NCBI GenBank assembly: GCA_001898165.1 | Contig: MKTD01000050.1 | Coordinates: forward strand, 1-64,000 | DNA from: Bacteroidia bacterium 43-41 | GTDB taxonomy: Bacteria > Bacteroidota > Bacteroidia > Bacteroidales > Dysgonomonadaceae | DNA length: 64,000 nt | Reading direction: 5' to 3' | Part shown: positions 21,873 through 40,642 of the stretch, piece by piece | Layout of the letters: each line of letters starts with the position of its first letter | Numbering within the stretch: the first letter of the stretch is position 1 | The notes under the pieces: generated by a model | Told to the model about the DNA's origin: nothing | What the model saw: the letters and a program-made list of their open reading frames with translations, nothing else | Database searches by the model: none | Position numbers and translations under genes: made by a program

Positions 21873-22436
21873 ATGAAGTACTTAATTGTGGGCTTGGGGA
21901 ATGTCGGGCCGGATTACGAGAATACCCGCCACAACGTAGGATTTATGGTATTGGACGCTTTTGCAAAAGCGTCCAATATTGTTTTTCAGGATAAGCGATA
22001 CGGCTTTGTTGCCGAGACCCGGTTGAAAAACAAGTCGCTTGTGTTGTTAAAGCCTTCTACGTTCATGAACCTGAGCGGGAATGCCGTCCGGTATTGGTTG
22101 CAAAAAGAAAAAATTGAAGACGAAAATCTCCTCGTTGTTGTGGATGATCTGGCTCTGCCTTTTGGTACGCTACGGTTGAAATCCAAAGGTAGCGATGCCG
22201 GACACAACGGGTTGAAACATATTCAACAAACGATTGGTACCCAGCAATATGCAAGGTTAAGGTTCGGGATCGGAAATGATTTTGCACGTGGAGCGCAGGT
22301 GGATTATGTATTGGATGAATTTTCGGATGAAGAAAAAGAGGTCCTTCCCGAACGGTTGAAGACGGCAGTGGATATTGTCCGGAGTTTCTGTCTGGCCGGA
22401 GTAGATGTGACGATGAATCAATACAATAATAGATAG
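21873..22436 (+). CDS. pth: Peptidyl-tRNA hydrolase
   Basis: [49 protein letters not shown]. Confidence 0.97.
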
Positions 22437-22553
22437 AGCAAGGAGTAAAGAACAAAGAGCAAAGACAAAAGAATGAAAAGTGAAGAACTAAAAACTAAAA
22501 ACTAAAAGATTTTCACTATTCACTTTTCATTTTGGACGTTGAACGTTGAATTA
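22437..22553. repeat. Heptamer-periodic intergenic tract
   Basis: agcaagg agtaaag aacaaag agcaaag acaaaag aatgaaa agtgaag aactaaa aactaaa aactaaa, a 5-nt phase shift, then ttcacta ttcactt ttcattt tggacgt tgaacgt tgaatta. Confidence 0.8.
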
Positions 22554-22563
22554 ATAGCAAAAC

Positions 22564-22956
22564 ATGGACGAAGTTCGGATAGATAAATGGCTGTGGGCTG
22601 TACGGGTCTTTAAAACCCGCACTGTTGCGTCGGATGCGTGCAAAAAGGGGCGTGTGCTGATCGATAATGTTTCGGTGAAGCCGTCGAGGATGATTCGTGC
22701 GGGCGATATTGTCCAGGTACGTAAGCCGCCCATTACCTTTTCGTTTAAAGTGTTGGATTTATCCGATAAGCGGATGGGGGCGAAACTTGTTCCGCAATTT
22801 ATGGAAAACGTTACGCCGCCCGAGCAATATGAAATACTGGAATTGAATAAGATAAGCGGATTCGTGGACAGGCAGCGCGGAACCGGGCGTCCGACCAAAA
22901 AAGAACGCCGGGATTTGGACCAGTTTGCCGATATGTTCGATTTTGATGAGCCTTGA
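22564..22956 (+). CDS. RNA-binding S4 domain protein (Hsp15/HslR-like)
   Basis: MDEVRIDKWLWAVRVFKTRTVASDACKKGRVLIDN; GRPTKKERRDLDQF. Confidence 0.92.
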   Translation: MDEVRIDKWLWAVRVFKTRTVASDACKKGRVLIDNVSVKPSRMIRAGDIVQVRKPPITFSFKVLDLSDKRMGAKLVPQFMENVTPPEQYEILELNKISGFVDRQRGTGRPTKKERRDLDQFADMFDFDEP

Positions 22957-28686: not shown

Positions 28687-28704
28687 GATAAGTATGAGTT
28701 TTTT

Positions 28705-28753
28705 AGTTATGAATTATGAATTCTTAATTATGCATTATGAATTATTCATTCAT
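28705..28753. repeat. Heptamer-periodic intergenic tract
   Basis: agttatg aattatg aattctt aattatg cattatg aattatt cattcat, seven uninterrupted 7-mers. Confidence 0.75.
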
Positions 28754-31268: not shown

Positions 31269-31303
31269 AAGAATCAAGAGCCAAGAACCAAGAGCCAAGA
31301 ACT
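31269..31303. repeat. Heptamer-periodic intergenic tract
   Basis: aagaatc aagagcc aagaacc aagagcc aagaact. Confidence 0.8.
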
Positions 31304-34028: not shown

Positions 34029-34127
34029 AGAAACTGTTTAAATTTGTTTCGTTATTCAAAAAGAATTATTTTTCAGAAGGCGAAGATCTTTTATTTACGC
34101 CTTTCGTAAGAAATTTAAACAGTTTCT
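34029..34127. repeat. Palindromic intergenic element (copy P1)
   Basis: Perfect 17-bp arms AGAAACTGTTTAAATTT / AAATTTAAACAGTTTCT. Confidence 0.8.
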
Positions 34128-34185: not shown

Positions 34186-34286
34186 AAGCTGTTTTGAACT
34201 TTCCTTTCTTTCGTGTAGCCCGCTATACGATGCGAAACGAAAATCCAAATTCATCAAAAAATTATTAAGAAATTTAAACAGTTTCT
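34186..34286. repeat. Palindromic intergenic element (copy C), inverted relative to copy A
   Basis: Reverse complement GAAACTGTTTAAATTTCTTAATAATTTTTTGATGAATTTGGATTTTCGTTTCGCATCGTATAGCGGGCTACACGAAAGAAAGGAAAGTTCAAAACAGC closely matches 19050-19130. Confidence 0.75.
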
Positions 34287-40577: not shown

Positions 40578-40642
40578 AGAAACTGTTTAAATAGCGAAGA
40601 TATCTTTACTATCCTCTTTTGTAAGAACTTTAAACAGTTTCT
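40578..40642. repeat. Palindromic intergenic element (copy P5)
   Basis: Perfect 14-bp arms AGAAACTGTTTAAA / TTTAAACAGTTTCT; interior GCGAAGAT...GTAAGAA shared with P1. Confidence 0.8.

Follow-up and report, generated by a model that had tools for sequence, protein, structure and literature searches.

The STRRs of Cyanobacteria are runs of near-identical heptanucleotide units located in intergenic spacers. Intergenic TAACTGA heptamers and mixtures of heptamers have been described in the Beggiatoaceae, the Cyanobacteria and some Bacteroidetes, together with 7-nt indels and with Bacteroidetes spacers containing repeats that are absent in relatives (MacGregor 2015, PMC4679880). In Xanthomonas and Nostoc, G-rich heptamers (GGGAATC and GGGGA(C/T)T) have been reported to keep a conserved place while varying in length (Rehm 2015, PMC4692102), in a study that also cites a Calothrix STRR example. 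A 2007 survey, as cited in both of these papers, found heptamers to dominate the long simple sequence repeats (SSRs) of bacteria and suggested polymerase slippage.

The heptamer tract analyzed here lies in a 64,000-nt stretch of DNA (the window) that forms part of a contig (C50) in a 3.6 Mb genome of the Dysgonomonadaceae (Bacteroidota). The nearest named relatives of its peptidyl-tRNA hydrolase (Petrimonas and Proteiniphilum) place the host in Petrimonas or very near it. The Pth protein of Petrimonas sp. IBARAKI (genome label G008) is 89% identical to that of the host, and the pth neighborhood is the same in both genomes. The TAG stop codon of pth (22434-22436) and the start of the hslR-type gene (22564) delimit a spacer of 127 nt, the first 117 nt of which constitute the heptad tract. 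The features of the locus are as follows:

21873-22436, plus strand: pth, peptidyl-tRNA hydrolase, upstream flank (PF01195, E 1.1e-65)
22437-22471, plus strand: head of the tract, five AAGANNN-class heptads, AGCAAGG AGTAAAG AACAAAG AGCAAAG ACAAAAG in the frame of the preliminary description (sequence reading, family profile and alignment)
22472-22485, plus strand: heptads AATGAAA AGTGAAG, AGTGAAA class (sequence reading)
22486-22506, plus strand: three perfect copies of AACTAAA, ACTAAAA class (Tandem Repeats Finder, sequence reading)
22507-22511, plus strand: AGATT, register shift between the two heptad frames (sequence reading)
22512-22532, plus strand: heptads TTCACTA TTCACTT TTCATTT, TTTCACT class (sequence reading)
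22533-22553, plus strand: tail of the tract, heptads TGGACGT TGAACGT TGAATTA, TTGAACN class (sequence reading)
22554-22563, plus strand: leftover non-heptad leader ahead of the hslR start codon (sequence reading)
22472-22484, plus strand: left arm of a 13-bp inverted repeat, AATGAAAAGTGAA, occurring once in the window
22519-22531, plus strand: right arm of the 13-bp inverted repeat, TTCACTTTTCATT, occurring once in the window
22564-22956, plus strand: S4-domain RNA-binding protein of HslR type, downstream flank (PF01479, E 4.4e-10)

This layout matches exactly that of the preliminary description, which had read ten in-phase heptamers from 22437, one shift and six more heptamers (22437-22506 and 22512-22553), and its 13-bp inverted repeat was located at the positions given above. 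The tract was also found to begin, as described, directly 3' of the pth stop codon; its head abuts this codon and contains a AAAGACAAAAGA junction. The strict 7-nt periodicity claimed for the tract is well founded, with the caveat that the heptads are mostly related rather than identical. Lag-7 identity reaches 0.673 over 117 nt (mean 0.314 and sd 0.042 in dinucleotide shuffles), none of 5000 dinucleotide shuffles attained the identity of the tract, whether lag 7 or all lags between 3 and 14 were considered, and either half of the tract alone surpassed all of 3000 shuffles. The only perfect copies are the three AACTAAA units, Tandem Repeats Finder reported short pieces only, and the view that heptamers of several sequences are strung in register was borne out.

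Searches with blastn returned 27 matches to the tract in the host genome, itself included. Periodicity was surveyed in 1.18 Mb (33%) of this genome, made up of stretches of contigs with a match, in which densities may be somewhat high, and genes were called with our own script based on open reading frames and codon usage. Plain autocorrelation of all intergenic DNA was above shuffles at most short lags, an excess that probably stems from compositional heterogeneity, and the count of tracts is therefore a better test of period 7. Noncoding windows with at least 75% identity numbered 40 at lag 7, 19 at lag 14 and 11 at lag 21, with 0-3 such windows at each of the other lags from 4 to 20, and the 40 noncoding lag-7 tracts compare with only 3 coding ones. 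Tracts were present in 35 of the 801 sampled spacers, and without these 35 lag-7 identity was 0.2867 instead of 0.2934, on a par with lags 6 and 8. In this stricter form, the comparison of spacers with shuffled sequence put forward in the preliminary description thus reveals an excess that is confined to tract-bearing spacers and disappears with them. No clear bias was observed with respect to gene arrangement, tracts being found in 29 of 614 co-directional, 2 of 83 convergent and 4 of 104 divergent spacers. The window itself contains two further heptad tracts, the first of which belongs to the same family:

31269-31302, plus strand: short AAGANNN array, AAGAATC AAGAGCC AAGAACC AAGAGCC AAGAAC, filling a 44-nt spacer whose flanking genes have IBARAKI orthologs in contact (-1 nt)
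28703-28750, no strand assigned: separate heptad tract with a TTATGAA motif, 7- and 14-periodic, flanked by two genes on the minus strand (lag scan, Tandem Repeats Finder)

An iterated profile of the family yielded 32 matches at 26 places in the host genome. Read in the orientation that places AAGANNN first, the segments follow the order [AAGANNN]n - GACAAAAGACAG or variant - [ACTAAAA/AGTGAAA]n - [TTTCACT]n - [TTGAACN or TTAAACN]n. The AAGANNN class was located 5' of the linker in 14 of 14 cases, of the TTCACT class in 7 of 7 and of the tail in 14 of 14. Between the two A-rich classes in the middle (ACTAAAA and AGTGAAA) there was no set order (4:3). The linker GACAAAAGACAG is common to the members in a 15-member alignment, and heads and tails differ among copies. 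With leave-one-out profiles, 21 of the 22 elements scored above all 100 heptad-order shuffles and the remaining one above 99 of 100; the pth-hslR copy obtained 57.0 bits, against a mean of 9.4 for shuffles of its own heptads. Segment order beyond heptad content is hence real.

Strict AAGANNN arrays in the sampled part of the host genome were noncoding in 30 cases and coding in 2. In 26 of the 30 noncoding arrays the 5' end of the AAGANNN segment was nearer to a gene boundary than its 3' end; of the four exceptions, two adjoin tRNA genes left out of the gene mask. The boundary nearest to the AAGANNN end was a stop codon in 15 cases and a start codon in 12, and the polarity therefore belongs to the spacer-filling element and not to the genes. 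Elements occur in either orientation relative to the genes, with the spacer mostly filled. The polarity was weaker in other genomes (25:13, with crude gene calls), and several other Bacteroidia presented two arrays facing each other. As a separate observation, heptad elements immediately adjoin genes resembling tRNAs, twice in a duplicated unit (C3:54144-54428 and C50:93726-93765 of the host genome).

Three consecutive units of the form AAGARYM were detected in 26 of 101 genomes of the family and in 22 of 297 genomes of the phylum. A composite model based on sequence only matched 43 of 93 Dysgonomonadaceae genomes and 39 of 149 Bacteroidia genomes (30 of 100 genera); this model is A-rich and its weak matches hence need care, but most of those whose sequence was read are plainly AAGANNN-type heptad arrays. 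In the whole host genome, with stricter filters, it identified 36 places, and it identified 0 or 1 in the complete genomes G001, G008 and G009. A pattern scan of millions of viral contigs gave mostly single matches among the matches listed, and a plasmid search returned no match to the element. In Dysgonomonas sp. ZJ279 (L062, 4241-4327), an AACAGTA array is followed by a TAACTGA-type array, so that the heptamer of MacGregor occurs there too.

Twelve tract-bearing spacers had an ortholog in the sampled part of IBARAKI. The host spacer was longer by 15 to 186 nt in 10 of these 12, by 435 nt in one and much shorter in another, with gene calls differing between the genomes in the last two cases; the median difference for 189 other spacers was -2 nt. 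Host and IBARAKI lengths were 127 and 20 nt for pth-hslR, and 214 and 28, 175 and 3, 44 and -1, 115 and 42, and 80 and 24 nt for other pairs. The IBARAKI orthologs of tract spacers are thus mostly shorter and often devoid of heptads, and the pth-hslR spacer is short and heptad-free in most of the 42 relatives listed, and likewise within the genus. Around C28:10-19 kb, the corresponding gene boundaries in members of the genus lack a spacer altogether or carry a heptad string of another sequence, as in one case with AAGACAT AAGACAC AAGATAC AAGACGC AAGAACC in G002 and AAGAGCA AGGAACA AAGAACA AGGAACA AAGAC in the host. At the orthologous locus of an array on C26, about 20 units in the host contrast with about 4 in G005, and length at the same gene pair varies between close relatives. 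Empty sites are hence present, but the spacers are too diverged for the exact element ends to be placed in a comparison of target-site duplications. Adjacent AAGANNN units were identical with a frequency of 0.46, versus 0.29 in within-array shuffles (0 of 2000 as high), and changed units come in runs (ACA x7, ATA x3, TAC x4). Such likeness of neighboring units and runs of changed units are the product expected of repeated slippage duplication in 7-nt steps.

Several other sequences were observed in spacers of these genomes. At the pth-hslR position of a Petrimonas metagenome bin (L011), TAGAGCAAAGAGCAAAGAC is followed by different, 8-nt periodic text. Strings of this periodicity replace heptads at L011 1020-1110, at L031 4677-4777 and in the IBARAKI spacer orthologous to C3:86466-86505 of the host (AGACTTTT AGATAAAT AGACTTAT AGACAAAT; AAATCATC AAATCGGT), and other lineages may, judging from these strings, favor period 8. 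The pth-hslR spacer of L010 (3563-3586, corresponding to G006) contains a perfect palindrome, AGAGACGCACGGCCGTGCGTCTCT, of which L012 has an imperfect form; this is an unrelated insert at the same place. A dispersed spacer sequence, GCGACTAAA ... TTTAGTCGCAT, was found at C3:21201-21429 and C3:53445-53646 of the host and is absent or shorter in IBARAKI. Finally, a MITE-like family with AGAAACTGTTTAAA terminal inverted repeats is represented by two short elements in the window (34029-34127, with 34273-34286, and 40578-40642) and by copies on contig C3, in spacers longer than those of IBARAKI.

We consider it reasonably probable that the pth-hslR tract represents one of the copies of a composite heptamer-repeat element that is dispersed in Petrimonas and other Bacteroidia and has grown by slippage. 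The preliminary description was to this extent incomplete: its heptamers stand as read, but the tract belongs to a dispersed family whose segment order is conserved, and is not an independent short tandem repeat. Neither a target-site duplication nor a terminal signature nor a mobilising enzyme was identified for the heptad family, and in the origin that we propose it is accordingly from segment order alone that we infer the seeding of spacers with a composite sequence copied from elsewhere in the genome. Slippage-type duplication in 7-nt steps would then have multiplied heptads, deleted them and introduced mutations, as suggested by local homogenisation and the contrasts in copy number. The element would be tolerated where the coding sequence and the last 10-20 nt before the start codon stay undisturbed, and a positive function would not be needed for what is seen. 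At some loci, heads lie in the same place and orientation across several species with different unit subtypes, a pattern that could also fit old vertical inheritance with rapid unit turnover. The mutS1 gene is intact in the host and in the complete genomes of the genus, which rules out that the arrays expanded because mismatch repair had been lost. Heptanucleotide loops exceed the size that MutS handles well, and are expected to escape its repair.

Independent microsatellites, each heptad tract arising in place by polymerase slippage and resembling the others through a shared mutational preference, as in the STRR picture, would account for the homogenisation of adjacent units and for the related AAGANNN arrays of many Bacteroidia. 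They would also agree with the 2007 survey which, as cited in PMC4679880 and PMC4692102, placed heptamers first in abundance among the long SSRs of many bacteria and proposed slippage linked to the polymerase footprint. The five-class order over 22 loci, which beats heptad-order shuffles, is nevertheless unlike their prediction, as is the recurrence of linkers such as GACAAAAGACAG, and we deem this explanation unlikely. A different possibility, to which we assign a distinctly low probability, is that an RNA-binding protein (cold-shock or S1, as proposed by MacGregor) or a DNA-binding protein reads the invariant AAGA and thereby regulates the neighboring genes. AAGA is largely kept and NNN varies, even between species at the same locus (G002), and CspB binding to heptamer direct repeats, as quoted in PMC4679880, is in keeping with such a role. 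However, the arrays face either transcript strand about equally (15 stop and 12 start boundaries), the Bacteroidetes -33/-7 promoter consensus is not enriched in tract spacers (3 of 35, against 45 of 510 others), and the orthologous spacers of housekeeping genes manage without the array. No sigma-70 promoter was found at the pth-hslR locus.

It is very doubtful that the tract operates instead as a structured RNA, folding into a hairpin 3' of pth that would act as a terminator or as a processing or stability signal between pth and hslR. The inverted repeat is compatible with this role, as are the z scores of the pth-hslR copy (-2.1 on the plus and -2.6 on the minus strand), which denote modest stability, and the very strong heptad-armed hairpins of a few relatives elsewhere (z of -9.4 in L390, -6.4 in L238, -5.5 in L245 and -5.2 in L227). 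Yet most of the 26 host loci fold no better than shuffles, z falls below -2 in 24% of 37 loci from other genomes and in 20% of ordinary host spacers, and the element is found in both orientations. Furthermore, no intrinsic terminator (a GC-containing stem with a T run) was found at the pth-hslR locus, and the best Rfam score was 18.6 bits against the 50 of the gathering score, with no structured-RNA match. The inverted repeat is consequently not a family-wide trait, most copies folding near shuffle level, and a hairpin was rejected as the function of the family, strong structure being limited to a minority of the 26 host and 37 other loci. We grant an even smaller probability to a dedicated process, such as a template-using polymerase or a recombination system, that would write ordered heptad strings inward from gene boundaries in many Bacteroidia. 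Its template or its recognition step would in that case explain why segment order is fixed and why AAGA is invariant next to a limited choice of NNN, and a process of this kind would also have produced the heptamer tracts found in Cyanobacteria, Beggiatoaceae and xanthomonads. As regards its role, we regard the tract most likely as near-neutral spacer DNA that lengthens through slippage in 7-nt steps, and a weak function is possible.

Because its units are degenerate and differ in type between species, while their order is fixed and orthologous sites can be empty, the family makes gain, growth step and unit conversion readable across strains. Heptamers are the most frequent of the long simple repeats in many bacteria for reasons that, to our knowledge, nobody has demonstrated, and this family provides a concrete system for testing the slippage explanation of that preference. 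Spacers in Bacteroidia can differ by about 100 nt in length, and also in content, from one sister species to the next with no apparent function.

Like MITE and REP elements, the heptad elements are non-coding, about 100 bp long, dispersed in both orientations and matched by empty sites in relatives, but their interior consists of heptad arrays, and a terminal inverted repeat or palindromic core is not present in all copies. The comparison with cyanobacterial STRRs made in the preliminary description holds in that a heptanucleotide repeat phenomenon of like sort, with tandem units in spacers, is involved. It fails in that the host belongs to the Dysgonomonadaceae and near-identical runs are limited to the three perfect AACTAAA copies within a chain of changing units. 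Wider features of intergenic heptanucleotide repeats are present, with period 7 exceeding both chance and other periods, a mainly intergenic location and variation in length. The elements resemble the heptamers described by MacGregor in being intergenic 7-nt units, mixed in one spacer and near start or stop codons, with shorter, repeat-free spacers in relatives. Length differs between relatives in both systems, through 7-nt indels in the earlier work and as species-level contrasts in copy number here. That search employed one perfect heptamer as its term, whereas the host family comprises degenerate units of several classes in a fixed order that recurs at many loci. As in Xanthomonas and Nostoc, the repeats are intergenic, occupy the same gene pairs and vary in length and sequence among close species. 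The repeats of those genera often form two convergent arrays, comparable to the facing arrays of Bacteroidia, show no general link to mobile elements and have units able to form G-quadruplexes, whereas the units of the host family are A-rich and without G runs. The literature searched, outside which most subscription journals lie, yielded no account of composite elements that string heptads in a set order, nor of the AAGANNN class. The pth-hslR element is an ordered multi-motif heptamer element, new relative to the known intergenic heptamer repeats.
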